The notes: generated by a model not told the origin, from the letters alone. A stretch of DNA of 64,000 nt from Mycobacteriales bacterium (GCA_035714365.1 DASTMB010000025.1:1-64000); one strand, 5' to 3'. Positions 45,437 to 51,888 are shown, numbered from the stretch's first letter. Numbers and translations: made by a program.

Positions 45437-46645
45437 TTACGCCGGACCGAACGCCACGCTTCCCTTCGGCGTGCCGAGACCGGTCGGGCCGTCGTAGCCC
45501 GGCACGCCGGTGCAGAGGTACGACGGTGAGCAGGCGCCGTTCGAGCCGCTGGTCACGTCGTTCAGCCCGCCGGTCGACCGGTAGAGCCACGCCGCCGGCG
45601 GCACGGGCGGCGAAGCGGTGTGGCCGTTGAGCGCGTAGACGCCCGCGATGATCGGCGCGGACACGCTGGTGCCGCCGAAGACCAGCCAGCCGCCGCTGCC
45701 GTACGTGTCGTAGACCGAGACGCCGGTGCCCGGGTCGGCGACCGCGGAGACGTCGGCGACGGTGCGGTTGGCGCAGCCGGTGTCCTGCTGCCAGACCGGC
45801 TTCGGGACGTAGAGCGAGCAGCCGCTGCCGGCGCCGTTCCACACCGTCTCGGACCAGCCGCGCGGCGTCGTCGCCGCCTGCACCAGACGGGTGCCGCCGA
45901 CCGCGACGACGCCCGCCGCCGCGGCCGGGTACTGCACGCCGTAGCCGGAGTCACCGCTGCTCGCCGTGATCACGATGCCGGGGTGCGTGTACGCGGCCTC
46001 CACGTCGAGCTCGCCGTTGAACTCCGGCGCGCCGTAGCTGTTCGACACCTCCGTCGCGCCGAGCGCGACCGCCGTCTGCACCGCCTGCGCCAGGTCGAGG
46101 ATCGACGCCGAGTCGGCCTCCACCAGCAGGATCTTGCAGAGCGGGCAGATCGCCGACGCCATGTCCACGTCGAGCGCGATCTCCTGCCCCCAGCCGACGT
46201 CGCCGGGCGGCGCGAAGCCGAGCGCCCGCGTCTGCGCCGTCAGCGGCACGCCGCGCTGCTCCACCTGCGTGAAGCAGCCGTTCGCGATCGTGCAGGCCGG
46301 CAGCCCGAACTGCGCGCGGTACGTCGCGAGGTCCGCGTCCGCGTTCGGGTTGTCGTACGCGTCGACGATCGCGATCGTGTGGCCCGCGCCGCGCGTGGGG
46401 TCGAGCGCGTACGCCGCCTTGAGGTCGTTGGGGCTGTATCCGCCGCCCGGGCCGGAGCCGCCGAGTGGCTCGGCCGACGTCACCCGCAGCGCGTGGCAGC
46501 GCGCGACGGCCGGCGTCAGCGCCGTGCCGCAGGCGGGCGTGACGGCCAGCGCCGGCACGGGGACCGGCAACGTCAGCGCGCCGGCGGGCGCGGTCGTGGC
46601 GAGGGCGAGGAGCGCGGGCAGGGCGCGCAGCAGCGTTCGGCGCAT
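45437..46645 (-). CDS. secreted S53 (sedolisin-like) peptidase
   Basis: 402 residues. Signal peptide, then a sedolisin fold without the usual large propeptide. Catalytic residues fit the family: E155 and D159 (GQEIALDVD), oxyanion D232 (SSGDSGYG) and nucleophile S327 (GGTSVSAP). Cys-rich (CPLC, CSLY, CSPSYLC). An acid-tolerant extracellular endopeptidase, probably independent of neighbours. The ATG gives MRRTLLRALPALLAL. Confidence 0.9.
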   Translation of the reverse strand: MRRTLLRALPALLALATTAPAGALTLPVPVPALAVTPACGTALTPAVARCHALRVTSAEPLGGSGPGGGYSPNDLKAAYALDPTRGAGHTIAIVDAYDNPNADADLATYRAQFGLPACTIANGCFTQVEQRGVPLTAQTRALGFAPPGDVGWGQEIALDVDMASAICPLCKILLVEADSASILDLAQAVQTAVALGATEVSNSYGAPEFNGELDVEAAYTHPGIVITASSGDSGYGVQYPAAAAGVVAVGGTRLVQAATTPRGWSETVWNGAGSGCSLYVPKPVWQQDTGCANRTVADVSAVADPGTGVSVYDTYGSGGWLVFGGTSVSAPIIAGVYALNGHTASPPVPPAAWLYRSTGGLNDVTSGSNGACSPSYLCTGVPGYDGPTGLGTPKGSVAFGPA

Positions 46646-46745
46646 GGTGGGCTCGCAGTTCGTAGGGGAGCCCAGGATAGGCCAACCATTGCGGTGGTCT
46701 CGGTCGCGTGCGACTCTGCGAATCCCTACGCCAACGGAGCATTTG

Positions 46746-47642
46746 ATGTTGTTGTCCCGCCGCGCGCCGCGCGCGCTCGTCGTCACTGCGATCGCGCTGG
46801 CGGCCACCGCTGCTCCGGCGCACGCCGCACCGCCCGAGGGGTGTGTCGGGTTTCCCGACATCCCGGAGGCGTGGGTCTGTGTCACGACATTCGACCCGGC
46901 GGCGCTGGTGCCGAGCATCCAGCCCGGCAGCACACCGGCTGCAACCGTGCCGACTTTTTGCGCGTACGACACCTGCACCGGCCCCACCCCGGTGATGCTG
47001 CCGACGGTGACGGGCGGCAACTCGCCAGCCGTCGTGATCGAGTACAACGGCCAGGAGTACCGCGTCCCCGGCCCGGCTTCGGTTCCGGATCCGGGACCTG
47101 TTCCGGATCCCGGGCCAGCACCCGACCTCGTGCCGTACGCGGACCCGTACCAGGCACGACCGCTCGCCGGTGAGGTGTGCCATCTGGTCTCGACCAAGGA
47201 TGTCACCGGCGTCTTCTACTACGACCCGACATACCAGATCGGCGAGATTGATCTGGGGCCACTATTCGTCGGAACGGCGCTCCCGCCTGCTGGAGCGAGT
47301 GGTGATCTCTCGTGCTGGCTCCAGGGGTCTCCCTTCTACGACCTGTGGGCTGACAGATATGGGTACCCGGGTCTTGCCGGGCAGGAGGTGTCCGGGAGAA
47401 CGGTGATCGACGCTCCCCCCGTATCAATGGAGTACCACGTATCGCCAACGGCAGATCTCTACCTCTGTGCCGCCGTGCGGAACATTGCCGGGATTGATGG
47501 GAACGACTGGGTGTGGGACGACTACGAGGGTCGGTTGGTCCGGCCAGACTCCTGGTCGGCGCGGCCCTATTGCGCGCTGATGATGTACGGCGACCCTGGC
47601 TGGCGCGCAGACGTGCTGTCGGTGAGTCCGGCCATCGGGTAA
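46746..47642 (+). CDS. secreted hypothetical protein with PDPGP repeats
   Basis: 298 residues. Signal peptide (RRAPRALVVTAIALAATAAPAHA), an acidic exported domain with several cysteines, a short VPDPGP tandem repeat (about 120-132) and aromatic-rich C-terminus (DGNDWVWDDYEGR). No family recognised. Codon use is visibly less GC-biased than in the neighbouring genes, which suggests recent acquisition. GGAG lies about 8 nt before the ATG. Confidence 0.78.
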   Translation: MLLSRRAPRALVVTAIALAATAAPAHAAPPEGCVGFPDIPEAWVCVTTFDPAALVPSIQPGSTPAATVPTFCAYDTCTGPTPVMLPTVTGGNSPAVVIEYNGQEYRVPGPASVPDPGPVPDPGPAPDLVPYADPYQARPLAGEVCHLVSTKDVTGVFYYDPTYQIGEIDLGPLFVGTALPPAGASGDLSCWLQGSPFYDLWADRYGYPGLAGQEVSGRTVIDAPPVSMEYHVSPTADLYLCAAVRNIAGIDGNDWVWDDYEGRLVRPDSWSARPYCALMMYGDPGWRADVLSVSPAIG

Positions 47643-47709: not shown

Positions 47710-48477
47710 GTGCACCCGGTACTGCTCACGGTTCGCGGCGTCGCCGTCCCGAGTCACGCGGTGTTCGTCGGCCTCGGCGTGCTCGTGGCGTTCGTCGTCT
47801 TCTGGGTCGAGGTGCGGCGGCGCGGCGCGTTCGACGATCGGCTCTACGTCGTCGTCGCGCTGGCGCTGTTCGGCGGCGCGCTGGGCATGCGCGCGTCCGG
47901 GCTGGTCCGCCACCTCGACCCGGCGCGCAACCCGGACGTCCTCGACGGCTTCCGGTACGGCGCCAAGAGCATCCTCGGCGGGCTCACCGGCGCGTACGCC
48001 GGGGCGTTGCTCGGCAAGCGGATGGCGAAGTACCCGTACCGCACCGGCGACCTGTTCGCGCCGGCCGTCGCGCTCGGCATGGCGGTCGGGCGGATCGGCT
48101 GCCTGCTCGCCGAGCCGCCGGGGCGGCCGACGGCGCTGCCGTGGGGGGTGCACGCGCCGGCGACGCTGGCGTCCTGCCCCGGCTGCGTCGCCGGGGTGGC
48201 GATGCACCCGAGCTTCGCGTACGAGATCGCGTTCAACCTGCTTGCGTTCCTGGCGCTGCGCCGGTTGCGCCACGTGGACCTGCCGCCGGGGGAGACGTTG
48301 ACGCTGTACCTCGCGGCGTACGGCGCGTTCCGGTTCCTGGTGGAGTTCACCCGCGCGAACGAGACGGTCTGGCTGGGGTTGACCCGGCCGCAGTGGTTCC
48401 TCGTCCCGACGATGGCGCTGATGGCGTGGCACCTGCTGCGCCGCTACGCCCTACGACCTGCCCTGGAGGTGGCATGA
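47710..48477 (+). CDS. divergent prolipoprotein diacylglyceryl transferase-like membrane protein
   Basis: 255 residues, about seven helices. Lgt-like: GRIGCLLAEPPGRP corresponds to the GRIGNFINGE signature but lacks its two Asn; HPSFAYE and RFLVEFTRAN match HPTxLYE and the RF-x2-EF-x-R helix. Lgt moves diacylglycerol from phosphatidylglycerol to prolipoprotein Cys; this divergent copy may use another acceptor. GTG start behind GGGGAGG, with TAGACT at 47679. First gene of a four-gene overlapped operon with a radical SAM enzyme. Confidence 0.8.
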   Translation: MHPVLLTVRGVAVPSHAVFVGLGVLVAFVVFWVEVRRRGAFDDRLYVVVALALFGGALGMRASGLVRHLDPARNPDVLDGFRYGAKSILGGLTGAYAGALLGKRMAKYPYRTGDLFAPAVALGMAVGRIGCLLAEPPGRPTALPWGVHAPATLASCPGCVAGVAMHPSFAYEIAFNLLAFLALRRLRHVDLPPGETLTLYLAAYGAFRFLVEFTRANETVWLGLTRPQWFLVPTMALMAWHLLRRYALRPALEVA

Positions 48478-48776
48478 GCGACCAGCCGAGCGGTGAACGC
48501 CGGCCCGGTGACGGCGGCATGCCGCTGCCGACCACGAACGGCTGGGCGGTGTTCCTCGGCATCGTCTTCGGCGGGCCGTTGCTGCTGTTCCTCATCATCG
48601 TGGCGTGGGGCCCGGTCGCGCTGCTGCTGGTCGTGTTCTGGATCGGCGGGGCGGTCGCGATGATGCGCAGCCTCAACCCGTTCGTGCGGGGCCTCGGCGT
48701 CGGGATGATGATCGGCGGGGCGATCGTGCTGGTGCTCGTCGGCTCGTGCCTCGCGCTCATCTCGGGGATCGACTGA
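48474..48776 (+). CDS. small membrane protein in Lgt-like/radical SAM operon
   Basis: 100 residues. A polar N-terminus and then three closely packed hydrophobic segments (AVFLGIVFGGPLLLFLIIVAWG, VALLLVVFWIGGAVAMM, GLGVGMMIGGAIVLVLVGS). ATGA overlap with the Lgt-like gene and TGATG overlap with the radical SAM gene show tight translational coupling. Function unknown. Confidence 0.8.
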   Translation: MSDQPSGERRPGDGGMPLPTTNGWAVFLGIVFGGPLLLFLIIVAWGPVALLLVVFWIGGAVAMMRSLNPFVRGLGVGMMIGGAIVLVLVGSCLALISGID

Positions 48777-50329
48777 TGGGCGCGGGGATGCCGTTGCGCG
48801 ACGCGGTCGTGCGGCGCTACGTGACGGCGTACTGCCCGCACTGCCACGACACGACGGGCGTGCGCGACGTGGCGCGGCTGGCGGCGGTGCTGGTCGAGCA
48901 GGACGGGCGGGTGTGGCTCGACCGCGGCTGCCCGCGGCACGGCCGGGTCCGCACGCTCTACGACGAGGACCCGCGCATCCTCGACTGGCTGGAGCAGTGG
49001 ACGGCGCCGACGAAGCAGCACGGCGTCGACACGCCCGGCAGCTACGAGCCGGTGCCCGGCGGCTACCTCGGCGGCCTCGGCGAGCTCCAGACGCAGCACA
49101 CCTGCATCCTGTTGCAGGACGTGGTGGAGGCCTGCAACCTGCGCTGCCCCACCTGCTTCGCCGACTCCTCGCCCGACCTCGCCGGCGTGGTGCCGGTCGA
49201 GGAGGTGCTCGCGAACCTCGACCAGCGCATCGAGCGCGAGGGCGGCCGGCTCGACGTGCTGATGCTCAGCGGCGGCGAGCCGACGCTGCACCCCGAGCTG
49301 CGGCGGCTGCTGGACGAGGTGCGCCGCCGCGACGTCGTCCGCGTCCTCGTCAACACCAACGGTGTCCGCGTCGCCCGCGACGACGCGCTGCTCGACCTGC
49401 TCGCCGAGCACCGCGACCGGGTCGAGGTCTACCTCCAGTACGACGGCTCGTCGGCGGAGGCGTCGCGCCACCACCGCGGCGCCGACCTGCGGGCGTTGAA
49501 GGCGGCGGCGGTCGAGCGCCTCTCCTCCCGCGGGATCTTCACGACGCTGACGATGACCGCCGCGCTCGGCGTCAACGACGGCGAGATCGGCGACGTGATC
49601 CGGGTCGCGCTGGCCACGCCGTACGTCGGCGGCGTCGCGATCCAGCCCGTGTTCGGGTCGGGGCGTTCGGCACCGGTCGACCCGGGCGAACGCCTCACGC
49701 ACACCGGCGTCCTCGCCCGGCTCGACGAGCAGACCAACGGCGTCGTGACGTGGCGGGACCTCACGGCGCTGCCGTGCTCGCACCCGCACTGCTGCTCGGT
49801 CGGCTACCTGCTCCGCGACGACGGCGGGCAGTGGCGCTCGCTCGTCGCGCTCGTCGGTGCCGACCGGCTGCGCGAGCACCTCGGCCTGGTCGCCAACCGC
49901 ATCGCCGACCGCGACGTCCCGCGCGAGCTGCGCACCGCCGTCCGGGAGTCGTTGCTGGGGCTGCTGTCGGAGCAGAGCAGCCTGTCGCACCCGGCGATCG
50001 GCGACCTGTGGCGCGACGTCTGCGAGAACTGCGACCTCGGCATCGGCACGCTGCTCCGGCTCGCGTCGTCGCGGCTGCCCGGCCGCCGCGACGCGCTGCG
50101 CGCGATGCTCGGCGAACGCGTCGTGCGCGTCACCGTCAAGCCGTTCATGGACGTCCACACGATGATCGAGGAACGCCTGCTCCAGTGCTGCGTGCACGTC
50201 GGCACGCGCAGCGCGGCGCAGGACCAGTGCGCGCCGTTCTGCGCCGTGCAGGCGTGGCCGGAGCTCGGCGCGCAACGCCTCTCCGTCGCCGCCGGGCGCG
50301 CGACGCTGCCGCTGGTCGGTACGCCGTGA
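48776..50329 (+). CDS. radical SAM enzyme of the COG1964 (MJ0619/Tes-like) group
   Basis: 517 residues. A zinc-type N-terminal site (C20PHC23, C52PRH55), then the radical SAM [4Fe-4S] motif CNLRCPTC (C120, C124, C127) and a second glycine strand LSGGEPTLHPE. The C-terminal VKPFMDVHTM...LLQCCVHVG...CAPFCAVQAW closely recalls the COG1964 group, which includes MJ0619 and the archaeal tetraether lipid synthase Tes. A lipid or pterin substrate is therefore plausible; placement with an Lgt-like gene favours lipid, which is inference. Confidence 0.85.
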   Translation: MGAGMPLRDAVVRRYVTAYCPHCHDTTGVRDVARLAAVLVEQDGRVWLDRGCPRHGRVRTLYDEDPRILDWLEQWTAPTKQHGVDTPGSYEPVPGGYLGGLGELQTQHTCILLQDVVEACNLRCPTCFADSSPDLAGVVPVEEVLANLDQRIEREGGRLDVLMLSGGEPTLHPELRRLLDEVRRRDVVRVLVNTNGVRVARDDALLDLLAEHRDRVEVYLQYDGSSAEASRHHRGADLRALKAAAVERLSSRGIFTTLTMTAALGVNDGEIGDVIRVALATPYVGGVAIQPVFGSGRSAPVDPGERLTHTGVLARLDEQTNGVVTWRDLTALPCSHPHCCSVGYLLRDDGGQWRSLVALVGADRLREHLGLVANRIADRDVPRELRTAVRESLLGLLSEQSSLSHPAIGDLWRDVCENCDLGIGTLLRLASSRLPGRRDALRAMLGERVVRVTVKPFMDVHTMIEERLLQCCVHVGTRSAAQDQCAPFCAVQAWPELGAQRLSVAAGRATLPLVGTP

Positions 50330-50613
50330 CGACGCTCTCCCGCGAACGCCGCGACGCCCCGCCCGGCACGCCCGATCCGCTGCGCCTGTGCGTCTACACC
50401 ACCGTCGCGCTGCTCGCGTGGCTGCTCGGGCCGGTGGTCGTGGTGGCGTTCGGCGTCGCCGGCTTCGCGGCGTACCGGGCGGCGCGGCGCGGCGGGCTCA
50501 CCCGCAGCAGGTGCGTGCTGCGCGACACCCGGCTGGTGCTCGCGTACCTCGGGCTCGCGGTCGTCGCCGGTGGTGCGGGCGTCGCGTGGCAGGTCGCCGG
50601 GTGGTTGCGCTAA
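50326..50613 (+). CDS. small membrane protein, last gene of radical SAM operon
   Basis: 95 residues from GTG, overlapping the radical SAM stop codon (GTGA). Two hydrophobic segments (ALLAWLLGPVVVVAFGVAGFAAY and LVLAYLGLAVVAGGAGVAWQVAGW) separated by a basic loop. No family recognised; probably a membrane partner of the operon. Confidence 0.75.
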   Translation: MTTLSRERRDAPPGTPDPLRLCVYTTVALLAWLLGPVVVVAFGVAGFAAYRAARRGGLTRSRCVLRDTRLVLAYLGLAVVAGGAGVAWQVAGWLR

Positions 50614-50661: not shown

Positions 50662-51888
50662 GTGAGCGTGGGGATGCTGGCGCCGTTGCGGGAGCGCGAC
50701 TTCGCCCTGCTCTGGGCCGGCCAGACCGTGTCGCTGATCGGCAACGGCGTGTTCACCGTCGCGCTCGCCTGGGCGGCGCTCGACCTCGGCGACGCGCGGT
50801 CGCTGTCGCTGGTGCTGGTGGCGCGGTTCGTGCCCGCGACGCTGCTGCTGCTCGCCGGCGGCCTGGCGAGCGACCGGCTGCCGCGCCGCACCACCATGCT
50901 CGCCTGCGACGCCGTGCAGGCCGTCGCGCTCGGAGTGCTCGCCGCGCTCGCCGCGACCGACCGGATGCGGCTCTGGCACCTCGTCGCGGTCGCCGTCGTC
51001 GCCGGCGCGGCGTCCGGGTTCTTCCTCCCCGCGTCGAGCGCGCTGCTGCCCGAGGTGCTGCCGCGCGACCGGCTCGTCGCCGGCAACGCGCTCAACACCG
51101 CCAGCCGCCTCACCACCGCCCGCCTCGCCGGCCCCGCCCTCGGCGGCGTCCTCGTCGCCACGGCCGGCGCGGGGGCGGCGTTCGCGGTCGACGCGGCGAC
51201 GTTCGCGGTGAGCGCGCTGACGCTCGCCGCCCTGCGCGCCGGCCGCACGCCGCTCGACCGCCCGCCCGGCATCGGGCTGCTCGCCGACCTGCGGGAGGGG
51301 CTCGCGTTCTGCCTGTCGCGGCGCTGGCTGGCCGTCTCGCTCGCGGCGTTCTCGGTCCTCAACCTCGCCGCCAGCGGACCGCTGTCGGTGCTCGTGCCGC
51401 TCTACGTCACCGACCGCCTGCACCTCGGCGCGCCCGCGCTCGGCCTGCTCCTCGCCGTCGAGGGCGTCGGCGGCGGCGTGGCGGCGCTGCTCGCCGGGCA
51501 CCTGCGGCCGCCGCGGCGGCCCGTCGTGACGACGCACGCGGCGTTCGCGGTGGCGGGCGTCGCGCTCGCCGGCCCGGCGGTGCTCGACACGCTGGTCGCC
51601 GTCGCGCTCCTGCTCGGCGTCGCCGGGCTGCTGCTCGAGCTCGGCAACGTCTGGTGGGCCAGCGCCGTCCAGGAGCACGTCCCCAACGACCTGCTCGGCC
51701 GCGTGTCCTCCGTCGACTGGCTGGTGAGCGGCGGCCTCATCCCCGTCGGCACCGCGCTGGCCGGCGCGGCCGCGGCGGCGACGAGCGCGGCCGTGGTGTT
51801 CGCCGCGGGCGGCGCGGTGACGGCGGCGGTGTCGGCCGCCGCCGCCGTCGCGCTGCGGCGTGCGGACCCGGGCGCCGCCGCGGATTAG
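50662..51888 (+). CDS. MFS transporter
   Basis: 408 residues, about 12 helices, FALLWAGQTVSLIGNGVF, ASDRLPRRTTML and a middle segment FLPASSALLPEVLP typical of the MFS_3 exporter branch. GTG start; substrate unknown. Starts 48 nt after the radical SAM operon, so may be read through from it. Confidence 0.88.
   Translation: MSVGMLAPLRERDFALLWAGQTVSLIGNGVFTVALAWAALDLGDARSLSLVLVARFVPATLLLLAGGLASDRLPRRTTMLACDAVQAVALGVLAALAATDRMRLWHLVAVAVVAGAASGFFLPASSALLPEVLPRDRLVAGNALNTASRLTTARLAGPALGGVLVATAGAGAAFAVDAATFAVSALTLAALRAGRTPLDRPPGIGLLADLREGLAFCLSRRWLAVSLAAFSVLNLAASGPLSVLVPLYVTDRLHLGAPALGLLLAVEGVGGGVAALLAGHLRPPRRPVVTTHAAFAVAGVALAGPAVLDTLVAVALLLGVAGLLLELGNVWWASAVQEHVPNDLLGRVSSVDWLVSGGLIPVGTALAGAAAAATSAAVVFAAGGAVTAAVSAAAAVALRRADPGAAAD

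Follow-up and report, generated by a model that had tools for sequence, protein, structure and literature searches.

Why should an Lgt-like membrane protein and a radical SAM enzyme be encoded together in one tightly packed string of actinobacterial genes? The question is raised by four overlapping genes at 47710-50613 on the plus strand of the window (the whole 64,000-nucleotide stretch of Mycobacteriales bacterium DNA analysed, GCA_035714365.1), which a sequence-only reading had taken for a possible operon that couples or modifies membrane lipids or lipoproteins. The genes lie in the order Lgt-like, B, radical SAM and D, and they and their diagnostic sites are as follows:

47710..48477, plus strand: Lgt-like membrane protein (P0001, 255 aa; PF01790, E 3.7e-30)
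48088..48102, plus strand: degenerate Lgt signature GRIGC (E. coli G142-N146; Cys131 in place of N146)
48474..48776, plus strand: B, three-TM protein (P0002, 100 aa) whose last TM helix ends in GxC; without a Pfam or NCBIfam match
48747..48749, plus strand: codon of the C-terminal Cys of B (Cys92), conserved among B-like ORFs
48776..50329, plus strand: radical SAM enzyme of the Tes/TrsS superfamily (P0003, 517 aa; PF04055, PF23545)
48833..48940, plus strand: rubredoxin-type iron site C20, C23, C52, H55, invariant in 35 aligned orthologues
49133..49156, plus strand: radical SAM cluster motif Cx3Cx2C (C120, C124, C127), invariant in orthologues
50186..50242, plus strand: C-terminal cluster Cys residues CCxH...CxPFC (C471, C472, C485, C489), invariant in orthologues
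50326..50613, plus strand: D, two-TM protein (P0004, 95 aa), without a family match

Both the coordinates and the content of the stop-to-start arrangement had been read correctly: the Lgt-like gene overlaps B by 4 nt (ATGA), B overlaps the radical SAM gene by 1 nt, and the latter overlaps D by 4 nt. The three TM helices ascribed to B and the two ascribed to D are likewise predicted, by hydropathy only. A promoter and terminator scan of the locus found none. Judged by eye, the operon is flanked by an ORF resembling a secreted sedolisin-type (S53) protease (45437-47206, minus strand) and by an MFS-type transporter gene (50662-51888, plus strand) starting 49 nt past D; at orthologous loci, the transporter gene is absent from the conserved neighbours of the operon.

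That the genes form one real unit is borne out by their inheritance. Over 80 actinobacterial loci have most of the gene set. A scan of GTDB genomes returned 80 loci in Nonomuraea, Planomonospora, Planobispora, Microbispora, Nocardia, Mycobacterium/Mycolicibacterium and several MAGs, with radical SAM proteins 69-76% identical. Of 86 orthologous loci with a full-length radical SAM gene, 85 have the Lgt-like gene immediately upstream in the same orientation, its product being mostly 54-69% identical to the window protein, and in Nonomuraea it overlaps the radical SAM gene directly through ATGA. Among 199 genomes of the Mycobacterium-type genus of genome G038, the radical SAM orthologue occurs in 51 and the Lgt-like gene accompanies it in every one (51/51), while only two more genomes, G433 and G483, carry an Lgt-like gene without it. 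None of the apparent orphans held up: in G433 the gene is a broken remnant and the radical SAM gene is gone, in G483 it lies at the very end of a contig, and a second Lgt in G301 is of another type. The co-occurrence gives a Fisher p of 1.4e-45, which overstates independence because the 199 genomes are related and the value is uncorrected for shared ancestry.

The distribution is patchy: of 297 genomes spread over the phylum, only a few gave strong matches. The two genes occur together in 5 of the 30 nearest relatives, and the operon is missing from one of the three genomes of the window's own genus; both the Lgt-like gene and D are also present at L161, L165, L160 and L168 (outside the class) and at L162. 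Two mycobacterial plasmids, one from M. branderi and one from M. avium, carry most of the gene set as well, and no relatives were found on viral contigs. On the M. branderi plasmid (L100:6246-7303), two DUF3558 genes (PF12079) lie just upstream of the Lgt-like gene and are possible protein substrates; we take DUF3558 to have a lipoprotein role. In one genome, two distinct radical SAM genes of this family lie near each other (G604:C57:2413-5205; L157, L167).

The pair also recurs beyond Actinomycetota, where one plasmid represents it: pPP1 of the marine bacterium Persicobacter psychrovividus, of the phylum Bacteroidota. There, a radical SAM gene of the superfamily (L103:5001-6395) overlaps an upstream Lgt-family gene (PF01790, 1.5e-22) by 11 nt. 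The product of this Lgt-family gene matches the operon-type proteins at up to 3e-31 versus 8.5e-8 for canonical actinobacterial Lgt, also has Y26H and N146C (E. coli numbering), and was placed closest to the actinobacterial operon type by the plasmid search as well. The radical SAM protein paired with it has the N-terminal cluster Cys residues but is without part of the C-terminal set. Neither B nor D was seen beside the pair, and the core is therefore two genes.

Such figures bear on the simplest alternative, that an ordinary duplicated Lgt happens to neighbour an unrelated radical SAM gene. Lgt paralogues are indeed common in bacteria, with up to four in some genomes (PMC13251419), yet the adjacency, the co-occurrence, the overlaps and the second phylum refute a chance association, which we give practically no weight. 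Linkage of the module is almost certainly real and far beyond chance, and the chief new finding is the near-perfect linkage between the Lgt-like gene and its radical SAM neighbour.

What, then, has become of Lgt in this partnership? The protein scores well above the Pfam cut-off for Lgt (105.5 versus 24.9 bits) and below the cut-off of every NCBIfam lgt model (TIGR00544, 69 versus 118.9 bits); its AlphaFold model (pLDDT 86.6) has E. coli Lgt (5azb) as its sole significant Foldseek match (E 1.2e-6). In E. coli Lgt, Y26, H103, R143, N146, G154 and R239 are reported as essential by mutation, and R143 and R239 are assigned to the phospholipid phosphate (PMC13251419); the H103 position is W, Y or F in other Lgt proteins. 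Compared with Lgt (PF01790; 5AZB/5AZC), the fold is shared and R143, G154, H196, Y235, R239, E243 and R246 are kept in 85/85 orthologues, whereas Y26 is replaced by H, R73 by A and N146 by C in all 85. The H103 site is L in the window protein and L or I across the orthologues, the N149 site is A in the window protein and T or A across them, and the periplasmic head domain is shortened. The two signature Asn residues are thus missing from the window protein, as had been noticed, and 23 of 23 canonical actinobacterial Lgt controls have Y26, N146 and N149. By the residue comparison and the Lgt mutational data, the lipid-phosphate site is kept, and the transfer site and the prolipoprotein head have changed. 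The suggested link to phosphatidylglycerol (PG) is therefore favoured by the retained phosphate-binding residues, whereas a role in lipoprotein maturation is unlikely because of the replaced Lgt-essential residues and the shorter head domain. An ordinary Lgt was rejected on the replacement of the essential Y26, H103 and N146.

A mycobacterial relative has been described: MSMEG_5408, the second Lgt homologue of M. smegmatis, has Y26H and N146C and is credited with 'presumed low Lgt activity' (PMC13251419). Judging by these substitutions it is probably the orthologue of the Lgt-like protein, and no radical SAM partner is named for it in the available text of that paper. MSMEG_5406, a hypothetical gene two numbers away, appears at -8.97-fold in an RNA-Seq table on zinc homeostasis (PMC7174638). 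The window's genome has only one other PF01790 protein (G000:C80:33711-34469, L002), of a type common to all three genomes of the genus (L132, L133); its signature reads GRIGD (N146D), to which the copy in the window's genome adds Y26H. No canonical Lgt was found in that genome and LspA is present; the housekeeping Lgt of the genus may be unusual.

For the radical SAM enzyme the sequence-only reading had proposed a COG1964-type, Tes-like protein. Its radical SAM motif (C120/C124/C127) and its CCxH...PFC C-terminus (C471, C472, H474, C485, C489) were confirmed and are invariant in orthologues, and Pfam recognises Radical_SAM (PF04055) together with an HMPTM zinc-ribbon (PF23545). With the NCBIfam TrsS and Tes models and PDB 7tol standing in for the COG1964 assignment, the best NCBIfam match, near full length, was TrsS (NF045646, 207 bits versus a cut-off of 490), ahead of Tes (NF045702, 157 bits versus 450); the controls M. 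jannaschii, S. acidocaldarius and M. acetivorans passed the Tes cut-off. The only full-length solved homologue is nevertheless the lipid enzyme GDGT-MAS (phmmer 7tol 8.6e-34, profile 1.4e-37, Foldseek 7tom 6.1e-23, the last with a weak predicted model of pLDDT 65). The link to Tes thus stands as full-length homology to a lipid enzyme and falls as a claim of special likeness.

Residues tell the same double story against GDGT-MAS/Tes (MJ0619, 7TOL/7TOM), whose metal-site ligands were mapped from the structure paper (PMC9433317). Domain order and the radical SAM site are common to both; the rubredoxin-type site C20, C23, C52, H55 corresponds to Tes C9x2C12...C33x2H36, C471, C472 and C489 align with C455, C456 and the PFC Cys (CC...PFC is kept), the SAM contacts F106, R210, Q268 and R275 of Tes are kept, and an HC motif precedes the C-terminal domain in family and Tes alike. 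In contrast, the [4Fe-4S]N ligands C73, C77, C80 and His (Tes numbering) are gone from every aligned family member, though kept in nearly all other sampled relatives, haloarchaeal ones excepted; Met439 has become an invariant Lys, and Tyr459 has become Val (Ala in L161). Met439 and Tyr459 are invariant in archaeal homologues. The predicted iron-sulfur content is two clusters and a rubredoxin iron, in place of three and one. In a maximum-likelihood tree, sparsely sampled and with MJ0619 entered as a 461-residue fragment, the family sits on a 1.55-substitution branch (support 93-100) outside all sampled relatives, joining neither Tes nor the methyltransferase-linked group. A grouping with pterin modifiers, which had been held to count against a lipid role, is moot because MJ0619 proved to be Tes and its pterin role is uncorroborated (PMC9433317).

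Membership in Tes was consequently rejected, on the score and on the missing N-terminal cluster ligands, Met439 and Tyr459. A true tetraether or membrane-spanning lipid synthase, coupling two fatty-acyl tails as archaeal Tes does, would accord with the full-length homology to GDGT-MAS, with the retained C-terminal cluster Cys residues and with the proposal of bacterial Tes homologues for branched GDGTs (PMC8941075). We consider it very improbable: the Tes score and the long separate branch speak against it, the second lipid pocket is not evident, the corresponding helical/amphipathic region being less hydrophobic than in Tes (GRAVY about -0.2 to 0.1 versus 0.36), and the lost ligands, Met439 and Tyr459 add to this, although the Tes variants M439A and Y459F/L are reported still to work (PMC9433317).

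Membership in TrsS fared no better, given the score and a locus without a methyltransferase neighbour. The TrsS system is defined by TrsM, and no TrsM-type methyltransferase was found beside the window gene or among the orthologues' conserved neighbours. The enzyme differs further from the TrsS (seleno)protein in its Lgt-like partner and in the absence of an in-frame Sec codon from the three cases inspected: what had been listed as internal stops of G373, G346 and G537 were natural C-terminal ends, and a selenoprotein was rejected. Remote TrsS/Tes-like radical SAM genes (L102:5977-8345, L104:4842-7120, L089, L092), in haloarchaea, on an M. vanbaalenii plasmid and in actinobacterial MAGs, all precede a class I methyltransferase gene, and the one from M. 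vanbaalenii also adjoins CcdA and a thiol oxidoreductase. Mss, too, is a radical SAM enzyme. The control genome of Thermotoga maritima, which we take to carry Mss, gave no Tes-family match at 1e-30, an indirect sign of difference. As a bacterial membrane-spanning lipid synthase, Mss is a further point of likeness, being a lipid-tail coupling enzyme of bacteria (PMC11868695).

The small proteins B and D complete the operon in most lineages. At 75 of 86 loci the Lgt-like gene has a B-like ORF as its neighbour, with the same TM layout and C-terminal Cys; the family has a Pro-rich N-terminus, three predicted TM helices and, in most lineages, the C-terminal motif [KR]GLGxGLMIGWALxSIxTAGxCTGxNPxLY. 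A Cys, mostly 10-11 residues from the end and preceded by a basic residue and then a hydrophobic stretch, occurs within the last 24 residues of all 92 B-like ORFs at these 75 loci. The window's B is diverged and keeps GSC, as its genus relative and others keep GLC or GVC. B genes lie ahead of the Lgt-like gene in Nonomuraea, often two, and tandem B duplicates near the Lgt-like gene were also noted at L064, L074 and L082. At 52 of the 86 loci D comes directly after the radical SAM gene, the two overlapping by 4 nt at 40 of them; its C22 and C63 are conserved.

This Cys of B is a possible modification target. B could be the substrate of the module, the Lgt-like protein adding a glycerolipid to the Cys that closes the last helix on its outer side, a C-terminal, internal site akin to a lipobox, and the radical SAM enzyme modifying the lipid or the peptide. 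Consistent with such a role are the constancy of the Cys and its setting, its persistence even in the strongly diverged B of L176, L180 and L182, the duplication of B in many Nonomuraea, and the positive charges, by which the Cys would face outward, where the Lgt cavity also lies. But the residues leading up to it, as a rule A/V-G-x-C, depart from a standard lipobox, no B was seen in L177-L179 or beside the Persicobacter pair, and the Cys may serve only assembly or a disulfide; we therefore regard B as a rather unlikely substrate. Narrowed to a Lgt paralogue that adds a PG-derived lipid to this C-terminal TM Cys before the radical SAM enzyme alters lipid or peptide, an undescribed route present in Actinomycetota and, as a two-enzyme core, in Bacteroidota too, the scheme would be distinctly improbable.

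The same Cys residues, in B and in D, fit a role outside lipid chemistry. In that case a peptide, a thiol or a cofactor would be the target of the radical SAM enzyme, and the Lgt-like protein would have been repurposed as a membrane scaffold or as a partner resembling a transporter. The replaced catalytic residues of Lgt would suit this, as would the top family score for TrsS, whose relatives sit with methyltransferase and thiol-redox genes. Every Lgt residue that holds the PG phosphate is strictly kept, however, which would be needless in a mere scaffold, and we judge a non-lipid function unlikely.

We tentatively favour a membrane-bound modification module that tailors a PG-derived lipid or its carrier. 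The Lgt-like protein would bind PG or another anionic glycerolipid through the kept R143/R239, having lost diacylglycerol transfer to ordinary prolipoproteins; the cytoplasmic radical SAM enzyme would generate a 5'-deoxyadenosyl radical for hydrogen abstraction from that lipid (or from its carrier), the C-terminal cluster lying close to the reaction site, as it does in Tes; and B and D may act as membrane anchors for the enzymes or as carriers of the group once modified. This reading is preferred because the two core genes overlap or abut and are co-inherited in Actinomycetota, with B and D added in most actinobacteria, because they travel on plasmids and stand together in one member of the Bacteroidota, and because the residues of the PG site, SAM site and C-terminal cluster are kept in proteins whose nearest full-length solved fold is that of GDGT-MAS. 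Against it stand the less hydrophobic pocket region, the closer score of TrsS, whose remote relatives adjoin methyltransferases and not lipid genes, and the weak radical SAM model. Of the membrane lipid pathway first proposed, the linked unit, the PG site and the lipid-enzyme homologue hold, while a lipid as the substrate is what we infer from them.

An open-access literature search found no paper linking Lgt-like and radical SAM genes. The family is also a caution against reading every bacterial 'Tes homologue' as a marker of membrane-spanning lipids, since such homologues include clades that fail the defining features of Tes. The linkage provides the second Lgt homologue of mycobacteria, so far only presumed to be a weak Lgt, with a defined partner and a function open to testing. 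Together the two would unite Lgt chemistry with radical chemistry, and they could bring to light a hitherto unknown lipid of mycobacteria, Nocardia and Nonomuraea; if lipidation of the B Cys and a radical step prove true, the pair would represent a previously undescribed route of protein lipidation or lipid tailoring.
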